From the IMG/VR virus record IMGVR_UViG_3300037488_000719, positions 1 through 20,180 of that record: a stretch of 20,180 nucleotides of DNA, one strand, 5' to 3'. The position numbers were made by a program, and so were the translations under genes. Origin of the DNA: a virus. Below the pieces are notes generated by a model. It was not told the origin of the DNA. It saw nothing but the letters and a program-made list of their open reading frames with translations, and did not search any database. Shown in pieces: positions 5,705 to 20,180 of this stretch; position 1 is the stretch's first letter, and every line of letters starts with the position of its first letter.

Positions 5705-5929
5705 ATGATAGCACGCATCTGTAGACTGCTCCGCATTAGTCCGCCGTCTGCGACAACCGAAGGGCTGTTGCTGGCCAGCGGCGTCACCGTTCCCGCCGAC
5801 GGCACCGCCGGCTACCAGCCGGGTTGCCTGTTCCAGCACACGGACGGCACCACGAATGCCACGGTACTGTACTGCAACATTGGCACCGCGGCTTCCTGCG
5901 ACTTCAACGTTGTAACCGTCGCTTCGTAA
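5705..5929 (+). CDS. Small structural-type phage protein
   Basis: The 74-residue protein has a strong GAGGAGA ribosome site eight bases before the ATG at 5705. The core GYQPGCLFQHTDGTTNATVL followed by YCNIGTAASCDFNVVTVAS resembles short proteins that accompany decoration or connector genes in environmental phages. It looks all-beta. The role is unknown, and position suggests a minor head or neck component. Its start codon lies inside an exact octamer (TGATAGCA at 5706-5713), so codons 1-3 (Met-Ile-Ala) are spelled by the motif. It is in the same frame as the next gene, separated by TAA and one codon. Reading through the stop is possible but not supported by anything else. Confidence 0.6.
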   Translation: MIARICRLLRISPPSATTEGLLLASGVTVPADGTAGYQPGCLFQHTDGTTNATVLYCNIGTAASCDFNVVTVAS

Positions 5930-5932
5930 GGA

Positions 5933-7546
5933 ATGCCTAAAGCAGTACAGAAGACGCTCTCTTTCCCCCTGGCAGGCGTATCCCGCAGGGGGAATTATCG
6001 AGACCAGTCACGTCCGTACGCAACTCCTTGGGCAGTGAACGTGCGCGGCGAATGCGCCCTTGAAGACAGGGCGCGGGGTGGCTCGCGCCCTGGTATGGTC
6101 AAGGTCAGCGATCAGATATTTGCTGGTGGGATCACGGCAGTTGTCCCCGTCACCTACATGGATAGCACGCCTACCAGGCAGCGTGATATCATCGTGATTG
6201 CCGGCGGGAACTTCTATGTTCTGAGGGGCAACACGGCGGCTACGACTGCATCTGTTCCCATTCTGACCGAAACTGGTGTGGCAATTCTGGCAGAAGACGG
6301 GAGCGAGATCATCTTTCCGTCAACCGTATCCAGCACAAACCCTATTGGCGACTCTGGCGCTTTTGACGCCGTGGAGCGATACGGGCGACTGTATATGGCT
6401 GACTCGGTGCTGCGGGAATATAACCCGGCCACCGGCATTGTCGATGCTGTAGCGGCCTCAGCAGGCACAGTTCCTACGGCCTGCCCTCTTGTGACCCTTT
6501 ACCGCGACCGGCTGTTTCTTGCCGGCGCCGATCACGTCTGGTACGCCTCCCGGCAGGGAGATCCAACCGATTGGGATTTTGGTTGCGACATGAACGACGA
6601 CGGGCGAGCGGTGGCCAGCCAGGCTAGCCGCGCCGGCGTCATTGGCGACGTGATTCAGGCCATGATTCCGCACAATGACAACTCTCTGACTTTTGCCACT
6701 CGCAACGGCATGCACCTTCTGCGTGGAGATCCAACTGACGGATCAATGGTGGAGATCAGTAATGATATCGGCGTGCTTTCTCCGACGGCATGGGCTCGTA
6801 GTCCTGGTGGCCTCATTTGCTTCCTGTCATACGACGGAGTGTATGTTGCGAACGCAGGGAGCGCCGATCATCCTACTAGATGGAGCGCGGAACGCTGCCC
6901 TGACAAACTTAGAAATATCGACCCCTCAACCAATCGAATTTCCATGGCGTACGATGTTGACGCCCGTGGCTTCCACCTGTTCATCACCCCGGCCACCGGC
7001 CGCGGCGTGCATTGGTGGCTCGATATCGAGAATCGCTCATGTTGGCCCGTGGACGTGCCGGAATCAATGCAGCCTGTGGCTGTGGCGCGTTTGCAGGGGG
7101 CCTCCGGAATGGCAGAGGTCGTCATTGGGTGCGCCGATGGGTACTTGCGCAAATTCGACGCCACGGCCACCACCGATGACGGCGAAGATCTGTGGTCGCA
7201 TGTCGTTATTGGACCTTTCCCTACGGGGCGCGGAGAACTCGAAGACGCGATGATATCGGAGATCCACGGCATTCTGTCGAACAACTCTGGCGTGGTAAGC
7301 TGGAACGTCATTACCGGGCAGAGTGCCGAAGACGTTTCAGACAAGGCCGAAGCCGCCGTGATAGCAGACTTGGCAGGAGAAGAAGTCGTTGGCGTGTCAC
7401 ATCGTGGTTATTGGAGCGAAAAGAGGAACCGCGTCGAGCGTCCCAGGTCTCGCGGGCCGTGGGCGGCGGTATGGCTTGCTTCTACGGCGCAATGGGCGTA
7501 TGAAGGGGTTGCCGTGGCAATCAATCAGCTTGGGAGGGTGAGATAA
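5933..7546 (+). CDS. Virion structural protein, possible beta-propeller tail nozzle
   Basis: The 537-residue protein starts three bases after the previous stop, with AGGA placed unusually close to its ATG, so reinitiation after the previous gene is likely. The N-terminus (LSFPLAGVSRRGNYRDQSRP, then RARGGSRPGMVKV) matches a conserved start I associate with phage structural proteins at this locus. The body has repeated blade-like segments: GRLYMADSVLREYNP (about residue 150), RDRLFLAGADHVWYASR (190), GLICFLSYDGVYVANAG (293), GFHLFITPATGRGVHWWLDI (346) and EVVIGCADGYLRKFD (396). Repeated strand-turn-strand units with Asp-Gly turns suggest a beta-propeller, and nozzle proteins of short-tailed phages are propellers. 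The nozzle role is inference from fold impression and order. A propeller-type fibre or enzyme is the alternative. One octamer lies at 7359. Confidence 0.6.
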   Translation: MPKAVQKTLSFPLAGVSRRGNYRDQSRPYATPWAVNVRGECALEDRARGGSRPGMVKVSDQIFAGGITAVVPVTYMDSTPTRQRDIIVIAGGNFYVLRGNTAATTASVPILTETGVAILAEDGSEIIFPSTVSSTNPIGDSGAFDAVERYGRLYMADSVLREYNPATGIVDAVAASAGTVPTACPLVTLYRDRLFLAGADHVWYASRQGDPTDWDFGCDMNDDGRAVASQASRAGVIGDVIQAMIPHNDNSLTFATRNGMHLLRGDPTDGSMVEISNDIGVLSPTAWARSPGGLICFLSYDGVYVANAGSADHPTRWSAERCPDKLRNIDPSTNRISMAYDVDARGFHLFITPATGRGVHWWLDIENRSCWPVDVPESMQPVAVARLQGASGMAEVVIGCADGYLRKFDATATTDDGEDLWSHVVIGPFPTGRGELEDAMISEIHGILSNNSGVVSWNVITGQSAEDVSDKAEAAVIADLAGEEVVGVSHRGYWSEKRNRVERPRSRGPWAAVWLASTAQWAYEGVAVAINQLGRVR

Positions 7547-9363
7547 TGGCAGGTATCAAAATTTCCGATATGACTCCTGACGCGTCTATCAGTGGCGTAG
7601 AGTTGATCCCGGTTTCGGATACCGGGGTTAGCAAGAGCATGACCGTAACCACCCTGAAACAGTTCGTCATTGACTCCATCGAGGCCCTTGCCGTCGGCAC
7701 AACTACCACCACTGCCGACAGCCTGTTCTATCTCCAGGGCGGCGTAATGAAGTCGGTTGACATTGATATCATCGTGCAGTACGCGATTGACACGATCTGG
7801 GCCGGAACCGCGGCAACCGTCCCGGCTGACGCCGATAAGATCCCGCTGATGCAAACGGCGACTGGCAAGACGCTAACGTTAACTCTGCTGGCTGAATACG
7901 TCAGATCCAAGATCGAAGCCGCAATCCTCGACGCTTCCAGCCTTGGCACGGCTGGTGCCTTGGTTGATGCTGACTATTTCCACGTCACGCAAAGCGCCGT
8001 TGGCAAGAAGGTTGCGTTCAGCACCATCATCGCGGCGATTTACGCCGGACTAACGGCATGGATCACCGCCTTGGACGCTGTAACTAGCCCGTCCAGCGCC
8101 GACGTATTTTTACTGGTCCGTAGTGGTGTGTCTAAGAAGATCACATGGGCCAATCTGCTGGCCGTTGTCGGCAACACGTTCGCACCGGCCACCACGACGG
8201 AGAACTATGTTCCCCAGTGGGCATCTGCTCAGAAAACGCTCAAGGATGGCCTTTCTGTCGTCACGACGCTGCGTGCAACCGCTACGGCCGCGGATACCGC
8301 TCTTGCTACCGAGAAAGCGACAAGGACCGCCATTGATGCGGCTTCATACGACACCATCTGGACCGGCGCTGCGGCGGCGACGGTTCCGGCCGACGCCGAC
8401 AAGGTTCCGCTCCTGCAAACCGCTACGGGTAAAACCTTGACGCTTCCCCTCCTGGCGGAATATGTCCGCTCTAAGACCGAGGCCGCGATTCTTGACGCCT
8501 CCAATTTGACCACGGCTGACGCCTTAGTTGATGCCGACTACCTTCATGTTACGCAGACCGCCGTGGGCAAGAAGGTTACGTTCTCAACCGTCATGGCGGC
8601 TATTTACGCCGGCCTAGCAGCGTGGATTACCGCCTTGACTGGTATTACGAGTCCGTCAAGCTCTGACGTGTTTATGTTCCTCCGTAGTGGCGTGCCCAAG
8701 AAAATCACATGGGCCGAAATACTAGCCGTTGTGGGCAACACGTTCGCGCCGGCCACTACGACAGAAAACTACGTGCCACAGTGGTCCTCCGCTCAGAAGA
8801 CCCTCAAGGATGGCCTGCTGTTAAGGACCGCTGTCAGGGCGGCGGCGTCCGCCGACGATCTTTCTTTGCCGACAGAACTGGCCGTTCGCACCGCCCTTGA
8901 CGATCTGGCATACGACGCGGTAACGACGTTTACGGGAGGTTCTGCAGAAGGCTCCGCTGCCATGCGCATTGGCGCCACCGCAACAGAGGGCCTGACGACA
9001 ATGGTTGTTGATACGGTAGTAACGCTAGGAGCGGTGGCCGGTGTGGCCGTTTTCACCGTTCCTGACAATGCCTTGCTCAGGGCTGTCCAAGGCAACATCC
9101 AGGTTGCGGCAGTTGCCGGCGGCACCAGCGTAGCTGTTGGAATTGGAGTCACCGCCAATGTCGATGTTTATGGGCTGACGGCTAACCTTAACAAGAATAC
9201 CAAATCAGATACTGCCATGGCACCTACGCTGACAACTTCTACCGTAGCCATCGAAGCCTACCCTGTCACTGCTGCCGGGGCCATCGGCAATACGGCATTC
9301 AGCGCCGGCACGTTGCGCGTTCGCATCGTGTATGACGTTCTGGCTTCCCTCGACAACGTATAG
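7546..9363 (+). CDS. Repeat-built tail fibre / appendage-like protein
   Basis: The 605-residue protein overlaps the previous stop by one base (TAATG), with GGGAGGG upstream. Residues 1-457 are built from about eight copies of a 45-65-residue unit with the pattern Asp, hydrophobics, Gln/Arg-x-Gly-Val-x-Lys-Lys, then a short helix. Examples are VSDTGVSKSMTVTTLKQFV, LVRSGVSKKITWANLLAVV and FLRSGVPKKITWAEILAVV. Three consecutive units were duplicated as a 187-codon block (residues 82-268 and 269-457). Such units resemble those in fibre or spike N-terminal regions of short-tailed phages, where they may form a trimeric shaft or collar. Residues 458-605 are Ala/Thr/Val-rich and look like a compact beta domain ending in RVRIVYDVLAS. 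No catalytic motif is seen. The exact place in the virion is not shown, and a head fibre is an alternative. Confidence 0.6.
   Translation: MAGIKISDMTPDASISGVELIPVSDTGVSKSMTVTTLKQFVIDSIEALAVGTTTTTADSLFYLQGGVMKSVDIDIIVQYAIDTIWAGTAATVPADADKIPLMQTATGKTLTLTLLAEYVRSKIEAAILDASSLGTAGALVDADYFHVTQSAVGKKVAFSTIIAAIYAGLTAWITALDAVTSPSSADVFLLVRSGVSKKITWANLLAVVGNTFAPATTTENYVPQWASAQKTLKDGLSVVTTLRATATAADTALATEKATRTAIDAASYDTIWTGAAAATVPADADKVPLLQTATGKTLTLPLLAEYVRSKTEAAILDASNLTTADALVDADYLHVTQTAVGKKVTFSTVMAAIYAGLAAWITALTGITSPSSSDVFMFLRSGVPKKITWAEILAVVGNTFAPATTTENYVPQWSSAQKTLKDGLLLRTAVRAAASADDLSLPTELAVRTALDDLAYDAVTTFTGGSAEGSAAMRIGATATEGLTTMVVDTVVTLGAVAGVAVFTVPDNALLRAVQGNIQVAAVAGGTSVAVGIGVTANVDVYGLTANLNKNTKSDTAMAPTLTTSTVAIEAYPVTAAGAIGNTAFSAGTLRVRIVYDVLASLDNV
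7789..8916 (+). repeat. 561-base in-frame tandem duplication
   Basis: Copy 1 runs from about 7789 to 8349 and copy 2 from about 8350 to 8916. The TGG in DTIW lies at 7798 in copy 1 and 8359 in copy 2, an offset of 561 bases. Copy 2 has one extra Ala codon. By manual alignment the first 155 or so residues are about 80% identical, while the last 30 are much more diverged. Many differences are at third codon positions. Confidence 0.9.
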
Positions 9364-13910: not shown

Positions 13911-16900
13911 ATGTCCGAGAACTCAGATTTTCTTGACGCTGCCCTGGCCTCGCTCCCTCCCGCCAGGCCGGCGCCCGAGCCGGAGTACTCGAATAAGGCA
14001 TTTCTTGACGCTGCTATCAGCAGCCTGCCAAAGCCTGAAGGGGACACCAGCGTACCGAGCGTGACTGAGACCGCCGGTAGCGCGGTGCTGAACGAATTTG
14101 GCCCGTCCACCGCCGCCCTGGCCGCGGGCACAGTTGCCGCCAAGGCGCTATCCCCCTCCTTCTTCGGTGGGCCAATCGTTGGCGGTGCTGTTACCGGCAT
14201 CGGGTCGGCCTTGGCCGCGATTACCGCCTACGGCGTGTCCAAGTTTGCCGTCCGCAAGGGACGCGAGGCGCTGCTAGACAAGGGGCCGGCAGACGAGCTT
14301 GTTGCGCGTGAAGCTCGCGGCCAGAAGTACAACCCGGCAACCGCGCAGATCGCCAACATGGTTGGTCAAGTCCCCCTGATGGGAGTCGGCGCCGCGGCCC
14401 TTCCCGGAACGGCCACGCTTGGCCGCGCCGTGGCTCAGAATGCTATCACGGGTGCTGCCATGAGCGGCGCCGGTGTGGCCGGCCAGATGGCGGAAGGCAA
14501 CCCCGACGCCACGTTGGGCGCCATGGCTGCGGAAATGGTCAAGGGCGGGGCCGTCTTCGCCCCTATCTCCTTCATCCCTGCCGCAAGGTCGGTGTTTGGC
14601 GCCGTTGGCTGGAAGGCCCCCTCCGACGCCGCCGTACTGGCCCTTACGTCAGCCGTTTACGATCATGCCGTACGCGGCAAGGAGTTCGACCTTAGCGAGA
14701 TCGCCAAGGAAGGCGGCGGAAGCATTCCGGCCTTCGCCCTGATGAACTTGGCGACATCCCTTGGCAGGATGCCGTTGCGGCCGTCCCCCAACAATCCGCC
14801 TGCGCACGCCGGATCGGTACAGGACGCTATTGCCAAGGAAAAGGCCCACCGTGAGGCCGTCAGCCGACTTTCTACCGGGGAGGGTGTTAGTCAGTGGGCG
14901 GCGGCAAACCCCGACGCAGCCCGCGGTCTGGCCCTCCTGGAGGCCCCCAGCCGGTCACAGTTCGAGAGAGCTGGCCTGCCAAGGGTGTCCGCCGAGGAAC
15001 GCGCCCGGATCGCCGCGACGGTCAAGGGCCTTGGCTGGGGCGAAACCGGCAAGCCGGTGCAGTCGCCGGCCGACTTGGCGATGCAGCGCATGAATGAGTG
15101 GGCTGACCGTACGCCAGTCCCCGAAACGCCTTCCGGTGCCGCAACCGTGCCTGTCGTGGCTAGTGCGGAAAAGGCTTCGAGCCCCGTTGCCCCGGATGCA
15201 GGGACAGGAGCGGCGCCGGTCCCTGTCGTCAAGAACAAGGGCAAGAAGCCTACCCGAGTGGTAGTGCCGCCGGTCGAGCCGGTTGCGGAGCCGGTGAAGG
15301 CCCCGGAGCCCGCGCAGGGGGGCAAAGCAGAACCGTCTGCTGCCACGTTCCCGCCGAAACCCAAAAACCCTTCCCACTTTATTAGCAAGCCCTTGGCCGC
15401 ATATGGGCCTGTGATGTACCGGGAGATGTCGCAGAAGGAGCTAGAACAAATCCTATCAAGAAACGCTGCTGTAGAACGTAGGACTTTGATGATGTCTAAC
15501 GTTCCACATCTCGCCTTGTCACAGACAAAGGGTGCAAATGTCGTAGTCGAGTTTAATGCGGAAGGAATCAAAGGGACGCCTAACACAAGCAAACCTGTCT
15601 GGGAGTTTCTATATGACCAAAACGAGGGAGAATTCTTTGCTCACGCTTCGGACGACGTGCCAGTTAAATGGGTAGATCATGTTCAGAAAATTACCATCAA
15701 TCCGTTAGATTTGTCGGATGTTCCATCTGAATATAGGGCAACCGCGGCTCACAACCGGGGGCTTGGCCTATTAAACAGTTTGAGAAGATTGAAGGATTTT
15801 GAGGAGACTCGTAACGCAGACGGAAGCAGAACCCTAACCAAGAAAGTTTCTGCCACAGCGCCCGCCACCCCGGAGACCGCGCCGACGCCTGCCGCCAAGC
15901 CCGCCGACGAACTCTTTGCCCCGCCGTTCAACCTGGCCGGCCAGAAGGTTGAGGCAGCGCCCGAATCCTCCGCCGACGTTGCCGCCAAAGCTCGCAAGGC
16001 CGCGAAGGACAAGGAAGCTGCGCAAGGAAAACTGTTCGACCAGGAGCCGATGGCCAGGCCGAAAAACGGCATGCCCCCGAAGGACGCACCGAAGGAAGAA
16101 CAGGTTGCTTGGTTTGTGGAAGCCGGCATGTCTCCAGAAGCAGCGCAAAAGGCGTACGAAGGCCGACAAGGAGAATTGAAGACCAATGCCGAAGGCGTAC
16201 GCCCGAAACTGCCCGTGGAAGCAAACCCGACTTCCCGTCCTATGGGCGCCAAGAAGAAGGGCAAGCGCGGCGGCGTGCAGGAAGTCAACGCGGAGACCAA
16301 CCCCATCGGCGCCATTGTGCAAGCCGCAGGCGGCATCCGCCCGTACAAGCCGACAATCGGCAAGAAAGGCAAGAAGATCCCGCACCTTCCAGAGCATTAC
16401 GCCGGCGCTCCGTTACGTTATCGGGGCAGGGGAGATACCCCGGACGGAATGTTGAAGCAGGTTCAAGACGCTGGCCATCCCGAGATCGAGACCATTGACC
16501 AGATGAACGCGGCCCTTCACGGCAAAAAGGTCGAGTCGCCCGAAAAGGCGTACAACGACATGCAGGCCACGAAGGAATTGCAGGTGCAGAAGAAGAAGCC
16601 CCTGCCCGTGGTCGGCGGAACCATGAAGCCGGGAGACCTGTTTCACGGATCAATCGAGGGAAAACCCGCAGAGTGGTACAAGGTGATTTCCCGCGAATGG
16701 ACGGAAAAAGGCTCCGTTGACAAAACCGTTCTGCAGGACGGCGTTCGCGTTGAAATTGATGGCAGTCAAGACCTAAGCGGCCTGCACCTGTCGCGGGGCG
16801 CCTCCATCAAAGAACGCGACGCCCTCTACGACATTGCCACACAGGAATACCAGATCCAGGAGCGTGACGCCGGCCGGGGCAAGATCGAGGGCATGGGCGC

Positions 16901-19900
16901 CGCCGCTGCTGATAGCAGCAGGGACTTCCAGCCTTCCGGCGGCATGGTGCCCGCCGGCGACGCCTCTGGCCTACGGGAGTCCGTCAAACGGATCGAGCGC
17001 AAGGCCCTTGGCCTGTCGGAAGCCGTCCGGGACGAACCCCGCACCTTTGAAGCACTTGTGGCTGATGCCGAGGCCAATCGAAAAGAAGATCCAGGCTACG
17101 CGCAACGGCTGATTGACGAAATCAAGGGGGACGGCCGGCCACTGGAGGATTACGAGGTAGCTTCGTTGTCGGTCGAAAACAACGTCCGCTGGAACGAACG
17201 CAACGCCGCAGCCGCGGAAACCAGTCGCGTCGCCAACGGGACGGCCGCCGAGAAAGCCGCCGCCGAAGCTCGCCTAAAGATCGCGGAAGACAAGCTCGAA
17301 GAACTGTTTGAAGTAACCGCCGTGGGGATTGGCCAGTCAAAGACCGCCATGGGTCGCGGCCTGTCGGCATTGCGCCTCATGTTGGACGAGTTCATGAACC
17401 CCGTCAGAATGGCGCAGAAGTTGCGCGAGATCAAAAAGAGGCCGTTGACCCGAGAAGAACTGAACGAGCTAGAGGACCTGGCCAAGCGGCACAAGGAGAC
17501 GGCGGACAAGCTGCAAGTCGAGAAAGAACGACTCGAAAAGGAGCTTTCGGCAAAGGAGGCAGAGTCATCCCAGTTGAAGCTAGAGGCCGACTGGGGCCGA
17601 ATGGTCACTGAAGCCATTTCCGAGCCACAGAAGAAGAAGTTTTCCAGCAAAATGCTATCACTGGCTGACCGGCTGGAAGCCGAAGCGATTGCAGGTTTCA
17701 AGGCGCGTGTCGGCAAGGCAAACGCCCTTGGCGACCCTACGGTTTTGTTTGATATAACCAAGTACGGAGCCGCGCAGATCATCCGCCTCTCCGCCAAGGG
17801 TGGCGCCTCTATGGCCGAATGGTCAAAGAACTTCCCCGAATGGTCAAAGAAGATGCGCGAGCGTTTTGCAGAACTCACGGACAAGGATTTGCAGGACATT
17901 TTCAAGGCCGCATTCAAGATGCTTAACGTCGAGGGAGCAAAAGCCCCCGTTGGCGAGAAGAAGGAAGGCGGCGGAGAGAAGCCCCAGAGCGGTAAGCCCT
18001 CTGGCGACATGCCGACGATCAAAGAACTCTTCCGCATGCAGGCCGACGCCGGGGTGCGTGATAGCACCGAGGCTCTGAAGAACGTCCATGAGATCGTGAA
18101 CGATCAGTACAAGGAAATGTCCATCGAGGAGGTCCGCGACGAGTACAGCCAGTGGGGCAAGGCACGCCCCATGAATCGCACCGATGCCGAAAAACAGATG
18201 GCCGACTGGCGCCGGCAGTACCAGTTGATAGCATCCATCGACTACGTTAAGGAAACCGGCGAGGCCCCGCCGAAATCCGGGCTCCAGCGGGATAAACCCT
18301 CTCCGATCCAGCGCGAACTTGGCCGCGACCTTCGATCTCTTATGCGCGAACTGGGGATCTCCCCTGTCGATCCGACAACCCAGATGGCCAGCGCACTTAG
18401 CGCCACCAAGACGCGCCTCGAAAACGCTATCGTGGACTTGGAGAAGGCCCTTGCCGAGGGTAAGGCAATGGTGAAGTCTTCCAAGACGATAGAATACGAC
18501 CAGCAGGCCAAGGATTTAGAGGCTCGCCGGGACGCGCTACGGGCTCAATACGACAATATGTTTCCCAAGAAGCCCATGAGTGACGAGCAGCGTCTCGGGA
18601 TCGCTATTAAGGCGGCTGAGCGCAGTCTCGACGACTGGAACACGCGCTTGAAGGATGCAAAGTCAGGCAAGTTCCGTGGCAAGAAGGAGGCCAAGCCCCT
18701 GCCCATGAGCGAACGGCTTGACTCCATCCGGGCCAGCCGCGATGCAGCCAAGGCCGAAGTTGAAGCCCTGAAGGAGATTGCCTTCCCGAAGCGCACGCCC
18801 GAACAGATCGCCATTGACAACAAGCGCAAGGCCCTCGAACGGTCCATGAAGGCGCTGCAAAAGCAGATCGACACGAACAACTTTGCCCCGCGTGAAAAGA
18901 AGGACATCGACATTTCCGGCGACCCCATGGCGATGAAGGCAATGGCCGATCATGCGTTGGTTTTGCAGGAGCGCAATCAAAAGATGGAGAAGGCGCGATG
19001 GGAGAGCCTTACGAAAGCGCAACAAAATCTCGAACGTTTTGGGGCAGGTTGGAACTTAATCCGCAACGTTAAATTCTCCGGTGACGTTTCGTTTCTGCTT
19101 AAACAGGGCGCGTTCTTCCTGGCCTCGCATCCTAAATTGTGGAGCAAGGCCGTGGTGCCTTCTTTTAAGGCCTTTAAGCAGGAGAACAGCGCGATTTACG
19201 CGCAGCAGTTCGTTGAAAAGGAGAACTACAAAAACGGCCTTTACAAGAGGATGAAACTTGAATTTAACAAGGGAGACGGAGACGGCAAGTATTCCTCGGC
19301 CGAAGATTCTTTCAAATTGAAGATCAAGACGTTTATCCCCGGCTTGGACAAGCTAATCCAATCATCTGGCCAGTCTTTTGCCACGGCGGCTAACATCATT
19401 CGCGGTGAGTATGCCGACCTCTTGTTGGCAAGCACCGAAACAGGCAGAAAGATATTGGCAAACCCCAAGAATCTCACGCCTACTGATATCAGGTTTCTTG
19501 AAGACATAGGCTGGGGTGTCAACGCACTAACAGGGCGCAGCGCGTTGCCACATGCCGAAGGAGCGGCGTTGGTGTTTGGTGCCCCGCGGTTCACCATGGC
19601 CGTGTTTAATACGTCTCTGTTCCGTCCGGCACTCCGACCCAAAACCAATGAAGCAAAAATCGCATTCGCAAAAGAATACGCAAGGGCCATTGGCGCGGCG
19701 CTTACCATGTATGGGATATATTCTCTGTTCAGCGATGACGAAGTTGAATGGAATCCGACCTCTTCTAAATTCGGAGCCATGAAGTTGCTCAACAAATACG
19801 ACTTCAACCCGCTTGCGACGTGGAAACCGATGATCGTGTTTTTAGCCAGAACACTCACTGGCAAGAAAAAGGTTGATAACGAAATTATTGATATCATTGA

Positions 19901-20180
19901 TTGGAATGGATGGCTTACCACTCCAGACAAAAAGAGCACGATACCTTATGGTAAGGGATGGGTGGATGTGGCTGCAGACTTCGTTGGAAGCAAACTTCAT
20001 CCGGCATTGTCTACGGTGGTTCAGTTCTTGACGGGCAGAGACTATAACGAGAGAATGAAATCCAGGCTTGCGATTGCCGCAGGCACCATGTTTCCTCTTT
20101 CTATCCCGCAGGTTTACAAGGCGTACAAGACAACCGATCCCATTACGGCAACCGTGGTGTCGGCGGGCGCTGTGGCGGGT
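13911..20180 (+). CDS. Giant phage polyvalent / ejection-type protein (3' end outside window)
   Basis: The frame is open from the ATG at 13911 (AAGGGA upstream) to the last base, at least 2,090 codons. Residues 7-16 and 31-40 are twin peptides (FLDAALASLP, FLDAAISSLP). Residues 50-110 and 140-240 are Ala/Gly-rich and partly hydrophobic. Residues 400-485 and 645-700 are Pro/Ala linkers around a GC-poor domain (489-644). Residues 800-880 hold GAIVQAAGGIRPYKP and LPEHYAGAPLRYRGRGDTPD. A coiled coil follows near 1175-1240. Residues 1280-1330 carry KYGAAQIIRLSAKGGASMAE and WSKKMRERF. Next comes EVRDEYSQWGKARPMNR, then GEAPPKSGLQRDKPSP. Near the window end are VNALTGRSALP (about 1872), FGAPRF (1889) and SSKFGAMKLL (1951). 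These motifs in this order recall large polyvalent proteins of phages and conjugative elements, often packaged and injected. No lytic transglycosylase motif was seen. Confidence 0.7.
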   Translation, partial: MSENSDFLDAALASLPPARPAPEPEYSNKAFLDAAISSLPKPEGDTSVPSVTETAGSAVLNEFGPSTAALAAGTVAAKALSPSFFGGPIVGGAVTGIGSALAAITAYGVSKFAVRKGREALLDKGPADELVAREARGQKYNPATAQIANMVGQVPLMGVGAAALPGTATLGRAVAQNAITGAAMSGAGVAGQMAEGNPDATLGAMAAEMVKGGAVFAPISFIPAARSVFGAVGWKAPSDAAVLALTSAVYDHAVRGKEFDLSEIAKEGGGSIPAFALMNLATSLGRMPLRPSPNNPPAHAGSVQDAIAKEKAHREAVSRLSTGEGVSQWAAANPDAARGLALLEAPSRSQFERAGLPRVSAEERARIAATVKGLGWGETGKPVQSPADLAMQRMNEWADRTPVPETPSGAATVPVVASAEKASSPVAPDAGTGAAPVPVVKNKGKKPTRVVVPPVEPVAEPVKAPEPAQGGKAEPSAATFPPKPKNPSHFISKPLAAYGPVMYREMSQKELEQILSRNAAVERRTLMMSNVPHLALSQTKGANVVVEFNAEGIKGTPNTSKPVWEFLYDQNEGEFFAHASDDVPVKWVDHVQKITINPLDLSDVPSEYRATAAHNRGLGLLNSLRRLKDFEETRNADGSRTLTKKVSATAPATPETAPTPAAKPADELFAPPFNLAGQKVEAAPESSADVAAKARKAAKDKEAAQGKLFDQEPMARPKNGMPPKDAPKEEQVAWFVEAGMSPEAAQKAYEGRQGELKTNAEGVRPKLPVEANPTSRPMGAKKKGKRGGVQEVNAETNPIGAIVQAAGGIRPYKPTIGKKGKKIPHLPEHYAGAPLRYRGRGDTPDGMLKQVQDAGHPEIETIDQMNAALHGKKVESPEKAYNDMQATKELQVQKKKPLPVVGGTMKPGDLFHGSIEGKPAEWYKVISREWTEKGSVDKTVLQDGVRVEIDGSQDLSGLHLSRGASIKERDALYDIATQEYQIQERDAGRGKIEGMGAAAADSSRDFQPSGGMVPAGDASGLRESVKRIERKALGLSEAVRDEPRTFEALVADAEANRKEDPGYAQRLIDEIKGDGRPLEDYEVASLSVENNVRWNERNAAAAETSRVANGTAAEKAAAEARLKIAEDKLEELFEVTAVGIGQSKTAMGRGLSALRLMLDEFMNPVRMAQKLREIKKRPLTREELNELEDLAKRHKETADKLQVEKERLEKELSAKEAESSQLKLEADWGRMVTEAISEPQKKKFSSKMLSLADRLEAEAIAGFKARVGKANALGDPTVLFDITKYGAAQIIRLSAKGGASMAEWSKNFPEWSKKMRERFAELTDKDLQDIFKAAFKMLNVEGAKAPVGEKKEGGGEKPQSGKPSGDMPTIKELFRMQADAGVRDSTEALKNVHEIVNDQYKEMSIEEVRDEYSQWGKARPMNRTDAEKQMADWRRQYQLIASIDYVKETGEAPPKSGLQRDKPSPIQRELGRDLRSLMRELGISPVDPTTQMASALSATKTRLENAIVDLEKALAEGKAMVKSSKTIEYDQQAKDLEARRDALRAQYDNMFPKKPMSDEQRLGIAIKAAERSLDDWNTRLKDAKSGKFRGKKEAKPLPMSERLDSIRASRDAAKAEVEALKEIAFPKRTPEQIAIDNKRKALERSMKALQKQIDTNNFAPREKKDIDISGDPMAMKAMADHALVLQERNQKMEKARWESLTKAQQNLERFGAGWNLIRNVKFSGDVSFLLKQGAFFLASHPKLWSKAVVPSFKAFKQENSAIYAQQFVEKENYKNGLYKRMKLEFNKGDGDGKYSSAEDSFKLKIKTFIPGLDKLIQSSGQSFATAANIIRGEYADLLLASTETGRKILANPKNLTPTDIRFLEDIGWGVNALTGRSALPHAEGAALVFGAPRFTMAVFNTSLFRPALRPKTNEAKIAFAKEYARAIGAALTMYGIYSLFSDDEVEWNPTSSKFGAMKLLNKYDFNPLATWKPMIVFLARTLTGKKKVDNEIIDIIDWNGWLTTPDKKSTIPYGKGWVDVAADFVGSKLHPALSTVVQFLTGRDYNERMKSRLAIAAGTMFPLSIPQVYKAYKTTDPITATVVSAGAVAG
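13929..14030 (+). repeat. Twin N-terminal peptide motif in the giant protein
   Basis: FLDAALASLP (13929-13958) and FLDAAISSLP (14001-14030) are separated by a 14-residue Pro/Glu-rich spacer. The first 14 bases of the two copies are identical (TTTCTTGACGCTGC). Short repeated peptides of this kind sit at the N-terminus of many phage internal proteins and may serve as docking signals for packaging into the capsid, which is inference here. The second copy contains an exact octamer at 14012. Confidence 0.6.
14010..14024. repeat. 15-base palindromic form of the octamer, copy 1
   Basis: GCTGCT-ATC-AGCAGC has perfect inverted arms around a three-base centre and contains the octamer TGCTATCA. It is the exact reverse complement of the copy at 16905-16919. 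Both are in the giant gene. A shorter 11-base version (TGCT-ATC-AGCA) is at 2111-2121. Confidence 0.7.
15375..15842 (+). other. GC-poor domain in the giant protein, possibly ADP-ribosyltransferase-like
   Basis: This covers residues about 489-644. GC over 15421-15840 is 195 of 420 bases (46%), against 68-75% in sampled lines just upstream. AGA, CTA and TTA codons appear, and Pro/Ala/Lys linkers lie on both sides. The order VMYREMSQKELEQIL, then MMSNVPHLALSQ, a strand (ANVVVEFN), then EGEFFAHASDDVPVKWVDHV and ITINP resembles the R, S and E elements of ADP-ribosyltransferase folds found in some polyvalent proteins. The catalytic residues cannot be assigned firmly, so the domain call is tentative. 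Confidence 0.35.
16905..16919. repeat. 15-base palindromic form of the octamer, copy 2
   Basis: GCTGCT-GAT-AGCAGC, with perfect six-base arms, contains the octamer TGATAGCA and encodes Ala-Ala-Asp-Ser-Ser. It is the exact reverse complement of 14010-14024. Confidence 0.7.
19060..20180 (+). other. Conserved polyvalent-type C-terminal region, GC-poor
   Basis: Residues about 1715-2090 of the giant protein include SFLLKQGAFFLASHPKLWSK, ALTGRSALP, FGAPRFTMAVF and SSKFGAMKLL, with hydrophobic stretches near 1925-1940 and at the window end. This motif order resembles a C-terminal region shared by large phage and conjugative-element proteins and may be membrane-active. GC is lower here than in the rest of the gene (for example 20 of 60 bases in 19861-19920). 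Confidence 0.5.

Follow-up and report, generated by a model that had tools for sequence, protein, structure and literature searches.

In-frame duplication within fibre genes is already a known mode of phage evolution. In the Enterococcus phage EfV12-phi1, in-frame tandem duplications of the tail fibre were selected in the laboratory (PMC6365445). As presented in that report, the copies are 1.8 kb long, arose during coevolution and were days old and almost unchanged. The same report cites Tetart et al. (1996) on the T4 tail-fibre adhesin, a work which by its title deals with fibre-gene duplications affecting host range; the duplicated T4 unit is a small adhesin domain. Tail-associated repeat domains likewise grew by sequential duplication in one lineage of the crAss-like phages, where the source describes BACON domains (PMC6949934). 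HFTV1 was also considered as a precedent and set aside, since the duplications described for it lie in the host S-layer gene and not in a fibre. A structural reference is the trimeric fibre of the roseophage vB_DshS-R4C (8gtc). This siphophage fibre consists of a short rod and a knob, and its foot domain was described as lectin-like and able to bind carbohydrates (PMC10276861).

Here we analysed a virus record from IMG/VR, 20,180 bases long and probably a fragment (the window), which carries a doubled block in a fibre-like gene, g10. The likeness to EfV12-phi1 is one of duplication pattern. While the laboratory duplications were days old, the window holds one 564-nt copy that arose naturally and lasted to near-saturation of synonymous sites, and this persistence is unusual. 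The doubled unit is a candidate shaft block, in contrast to the small adhesin domain of T4. It combines three modules with a linker, whereas the crAss-like BACON arrays involve another domain in another lineage. The predicted tip of g10 has a fold like the C-terminal foot of the R4C fibre (PMC10276861); shaft modules like those of the window do not figure in the part of the R4C description considered here. One-block relatives that share both flanks form, together with the window, a clean before-and-after pair for the effect of an added shaft block.

Modular architecture of g10

The start codon of g10 overlaps the stop codon of the upstream tail-like gene g09 (TAATG). Profile comparison identified m1 to m5 as related repeats of about 40-43 residues each, with 8 of the 10 pairs reaching a probability of at least 80%. 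The best pair was m4-m5 (97.7%), and the weak ones were m2-m3 (27.6%) and m2-m4 (11.0%). The linker reached at most 0.8% against any module and is thus unrelated to them. Since each block joins three related modules to an unrelated linker, it is a higher-order repeat, m3-m4-m5-linker. Module and linker HMMs count eight modules and two linkers in the whole protein (Table 1).

Table 1. Positions of g10, its parts and the two upstream genes in the window
Feature	Position	Strand	Basis
g08, 74-aa stand-alone protein	5705..5929	+	homologues anchor a second fibre N-terminally in some relatives
g09, upstream, tail/connector-like	5933..7546	+	synteny in relatives, weak PHROG matches
g10, fibre-like gene, 605 aa	7546..9363	+	ORF list, sequence
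Module m1 (aa 8-48)	7567..7689	+	module HMM, iE 7e-16
Module m2 (aa 51-89)	7696..7812	+	module HMM, iE 1e-14
Block A (aa 82-268), m3, m4, m5 and linker	7789..8349	+	
Module m3, copy A (aa 88-127)	7807..7926	+	module HMM, iE 4e-16
Module m4, copy A (aa 132-174)	7939..8067	+	module HMM, iE 1e-13
Module m5, copy A (aa 175-212)	8068..8181	+	module HMM, iE 3e-14
Linker, copy A (aa 213-265)	8182..8340	+	linker HMM, iE 3e-27
Block B (aa 269-457), second m3-m4-m5-linker copy	8350..8916	+	sister of block A, support 99/98
Module m3, copy B (aa 274-315)	8365..8490	+	module HMM, iE 7e-14
Module m4, copy B (aa 321-362)	8506..8631	+	module HMM, iE 2e-14
Module m5, copy B (aa 363-400)	8632..8745	+	module HMM, iE 3e-12
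Linker, copy B (aa 401-452)	8746..8901	+	linker HMM, iE 2e-29
Predicted C-terminal beta-sandwich tip (aa 470-605)	8953..9360	+	AlphaFold2 model, structural match to R4C fibre 8gtc_T

The preliminary description had placed two adjacent in-frame blocks at 7789-8916, and we found them exactly there, with an Asp codon at each boundary: D82 (7789), D269 (8350) and D457 (8914-8916). Its period of 561 bases applies from D82 to D269 (187 aa) and does not apply to later residues, where the period becomes 564 nt (188 aa) because block B has an additional codon near its start. Self-comparison of the g10 protein gave a single dominant repeat, offset by 188 residues; its score was 710, whereas five shuffles did not exceed 50. 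At the DNA level, self-comparison returned one 300-nt pair with 75% identity. These are tandem in-frame copies inside a single fibre-like open reading frame.

Protein identity over the first 155 residues had been put at about 80%; the alignment gives 129 identical residues in 156 aligned columns of this range of block A, or 83%. Over the whole blocks, 144 of 189 columns are identical. In the ungapped core (aa 89-236 against 277-424) the identity is 124 of 148 residues, where 100 shuffles gave a maximum of 26. The block ends, as had been noticed before, diverge more. Their last 33 residues show 48% identity and a significant excess of non-synonymous changes (chi-square p ~1e-9).

Age of the duplication and selection on both copies

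The doubling had been taken for an old one, kept under protein-level selection and not produced by recent slippage, a reading at odds with equal divergence at all codon positions. The differences in the core fall on codon positions 1, 2 and 3 as 23, 8 and 72. A control in which the same number of changes was placed at random (2000 simulations) gave a mean of 34.6 and a maximum of 50 third-position differences, and a mean of 83 and a maximum of 98 identical residues. Synonymous sites in the core are near saturation (69.75 differences over 114.5 sites, pS 0.61). We obtained dN ~0.108 and dS ~1.25, hence dN/dS ~0.086; such a near-saturated dS has a wide error, and "old" is meant qualitatively only.

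The two copies also behave alike. Their end branches in the block tree are of similar length (0.13 for block A and 0.15 for block B). Of 41 columns conserved in the family, that is in at least 11 of 14 relatives, copy A keeps 31, copy B keeps 32 and both keep 30. Neither copy is decaying. With dN/dS ~0.09, near-saturation of synonymous sites, similar end branches and conserved columns retained, the earlier reading of age and selection is borne out.

The record is an IMG/VR fragment, and a repeat in a metagenome contig could be mis-assembled. This is very improbable here, as 103 of the 444 core nucleotides differ between the copies, far more than an assembler would introduce when duplicating one template, and the open frame and the codon-position bias indicate long selection. 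A chimera of the genes of two strains keeps a small probability. Recent slippage does not account for the doubling, and an assembly error is not a plausible source of it either.

Block number in relatives

Relatives were collected from four viral-contig scans and one genome-contig scan, which left 17 distinct contigs (L numbers) for the architecture count. Fourteen of them were counted as in-family, and the more distant L013, L014 and L038 were kept apart. Before counting, we dropped contigs that duplicated a counted one exactly or nearly so (L002, L004-L006, L031, L032, L039-L042). The other rows dropped were L015, with a 27-residue match, L016-L028, which match over the N-terminal 41-65 residues only, and L043-L046, which match in the tip only. 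L012 and L029 are truncated by their own contig ends.

All 14 in-family relatives have five shaft modules (module HMM, iE < 0.01), against eight in the window. They all carry one block where the window has two, and all of them are more distant from the window than a close strain would be. Among the relatives scanned, none carried three blocks. Twelve of the 14 have one linker, L036 has two and L037 four. Weak additional module matches (iE 0.01-0.4) occur in L003, L011, L030, L034 and L037. In L010 and L033, a single block is combined with the tip seen in the window (57% and 64% tip identity, respectively); the two flanks of the extra block therefore also occur where it is absent.

The distant relatives differ from this pattern. 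L013 shows seven modules (eight at iE < 1) together with a single linker. It also contains an internal repeat of its own (offset 133 residues, 36% identity) that clusters apart from the blocks of the window. In L014 there are four modules (seven at iE < 1) and a single linker, and a 93-residue stretch is duplicated at 67%. Three linkers and zero modules at iE < 0.01 were counted in L038.

It had been proposed that gains or losses of such blocks could serve to adjust the length of the fibre. This stands in part. Other gains on the scale of modules do exist (the linkers of L036 and L037, the extra modules of L013 and the duplication of L014), but the extra block itself is present in the window only. 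Since all 14 in-family relatives remain at five modules, it looks like a single gain and not like an active dial.

Between its linker copies, the L037 protein also carries 15/30-residue helical repeats (aa 329-389; 69% at offset 30 and 78% at offset 45). They are probably a more recent length change in the same zone.

Origin of the second block

In a tree of 16 blocks, A and B are sisters with support 99/98, and the three-module part alone gives 100/99. This means that the doubling arose, or was homogenised, in the lineage of the window itself. One duplication in that lineage would be the simplest reading.

The second block could instead have been acquired by recombination from the fibre gene of another phage. 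Recombination is active in this group, where tips are exchanged between fibre genes, and the near-saturated synonymous divergence between the blocks would also fit. However, A and B are 78% identical to each other while neither exceeds 54% to any of the 14 relatives, the Asp boundary has the same position in both copies, and an acquisition would require as donor a close relative that the sample does not include. We regard an acquisition as unlikely. Still less probable is a duplication much older than the A-B identity suggests, with the copies kept alike by gene conversion. Synonymous divergence is uneven across sub-segments (0.41 to 0.77), which is weakly significant (p 0.046). Against gene conversion, none of the 14 in-family relatives has two such blocks, so that an old duplication would require repeated losses, and the DNA comparison lacks a long near-identical tract.

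The joint between the blocks bears on the route of a duplication within the gene. It reads SYD-then-TIW and so puts a linker end (copy B: AYD) before an m3 start (copy A: D then TIW); the Asp codon is GAC at all three places. Read after such divergence, the joint would match the outcome expected from recombination at a shared codon.

We consider it likely that an attachment fibre was lengthened by one shaft block, doubled in frame through illegitimate recombination, and that both copies were then kept by purifying selection. In the proposed course of events, one m3-m4-m5-linker block would have been doubled in the lineage of the window. The exchange probably took place between the Asp (GAC) codon at the end of module 2 and a second such codon just past the linker. 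About 188 residues would thereby have been inserted between shaft and tip. The longer protein was retained, and the copies diverged synonymously to near-saturation while purifying selection held the protein sequence.

Probable fibre identity: gene context and tip fold

The product of g10 is probably a host-attachment fibre, with a tail-anchored N-terminal part, shaft modules of a strand-strand-helix type, a helix-bearing linker and a beta-sandwich tip. This reading is based on gene order, the modular shaft and the tip fold.

The gene lies within a cluster of tail and structural genes. It adjoins g09 in 17 of the 18 loci that hold both; in L037 the gap is ~740 nt. A locus was counted if it had g09 together with a match to the N-terminal or block part of g10, which leaves out L038, L043, L045 and L046 (tip or linker match only). 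The g09 product is probably a nozzle or head-closure type protein. Its weak PHROG matches were to head-closure, tail or virion families, each in at most 2 of 9 homologues, with a best E of 4.5e-8.

The window fibre itself matched nothing in Pfam at the cut-off, BACON included, and no PHROG family of known function; its only PHROG match was 33397, of unknown function (E 0.002). The fibre of the distant relative L014 does match tail and tail-fibre PHROGs. Searched as profiles, the fibre, g09, capsid-like and portal-like proteins had no sequence match to a solved structure.

The same four proteins gave zero tblastn matches in 50,697 phage records, and the architecture is therefore a new annotation for an uncultured tailed-phage lineage, which appears to be without a deposited isolate in that collection. 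With the L014 fibre as the query, 55 records were matched, none over 80% of its length, and those listed matched through short stretches. One relative, L039, sits in a metagenome bin labelled Verrucomicrobia.

The whole-protein structure model has a mean pLDDT of only 43.6. It places, with low confidence, two strands and a helix in most of the eight related modules of the candidate elongated shaft. At this pLDDT the shaft fold is tentative, and we judged the model too weak for a fold search. The C-terminal part was modelled separately with AlphaFold2 (window 8749-9360, six sequences). The overall pLDDT was 59.7, with ten-residue means mostly between 63 and 80 over aa 470-605, where the model forms a beta-sandwich. 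Its best structural match was the R4C fibre 8gtc_T (Z 13.3, rmsd 2.7 Å over 116 residues). We conclude with moderate confidence that the tip resembles the lectin-like foot of that fibre.

The next matches were the trimeric capsid cement proteins of KHP30/KHP40 and capsid proteins of Pam1 and GP4, at Z 8.6-10.0 and 13% sequence identity. They would suit a capsid head fibre or decoration protein. We find this rather unlikely for g10, since the top match is a tail fibre and the gene adjoins the tail-like g09.

If g10 encodes an attachment fibre, presumably trimeric, the most likely effect of the extra block would be a longer shaft that moves the tip outward. Alternatively, the second linker may provide a further hinge or trimerisation point. 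Length may be the trait under selection. Since the doubling is present in one lineage only, selection for length is inseparable from chance fixation followed by constraint.

The g08-type genes and exchange of tips

The relatives vary in the gene that corresponds to g08. L008, L010, L011, L034 and L035 have a g08-type open frame of 73-85 aa. In L001, L007, L012, L029, L033, L045 and L046 the g08-type N-terminal anchor heads a frame of 217-740 aa, a second fibre.

C-terminal tips have been swapped between neighbouring g08-type and g10-type fibre genes. The tips concerned are window 8923-9360, those of L010, L030 and L033, and those of the g08-type genes of L001, L007, L012, L029, L045 and L046. 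The g10 tip of L030 is 67% identical over 164 aa to the g08-type fibre of L029, and the g10 tip of the window is 37-41% identical to the tips of L045 and L046.

We also considered a more speculative idea, in which the five-module shaft is a conserved molecular ruler. The window would then be a natural "ruler mutant", with its tip moved outward by three modules plus a second linker, a state that was then retained. Shaft length would decide which of the two exchanging tips first touches the host, and an altered length could shift the order in which receptors are used once tips have been exchanged or the body of the g08 fibre has been lost. We think this improbable, as L008 and L010 also have g08 stubs and retain five modules. 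For the same reason, a link between the g08 stub and the longer g10 shaft is unsupported.

Two further observations can be added. A giant open frame (13911-20180, >2090 aa) runs off the contig end; it has no Pfam match at the cut-off and only short weak similarity in relatives. The N-terminal module of about 45 aa (MANIKISDMTAA-type) also begins proteins of about 200 aa with a different C-terminal half on other phage contigs (L016-L028).
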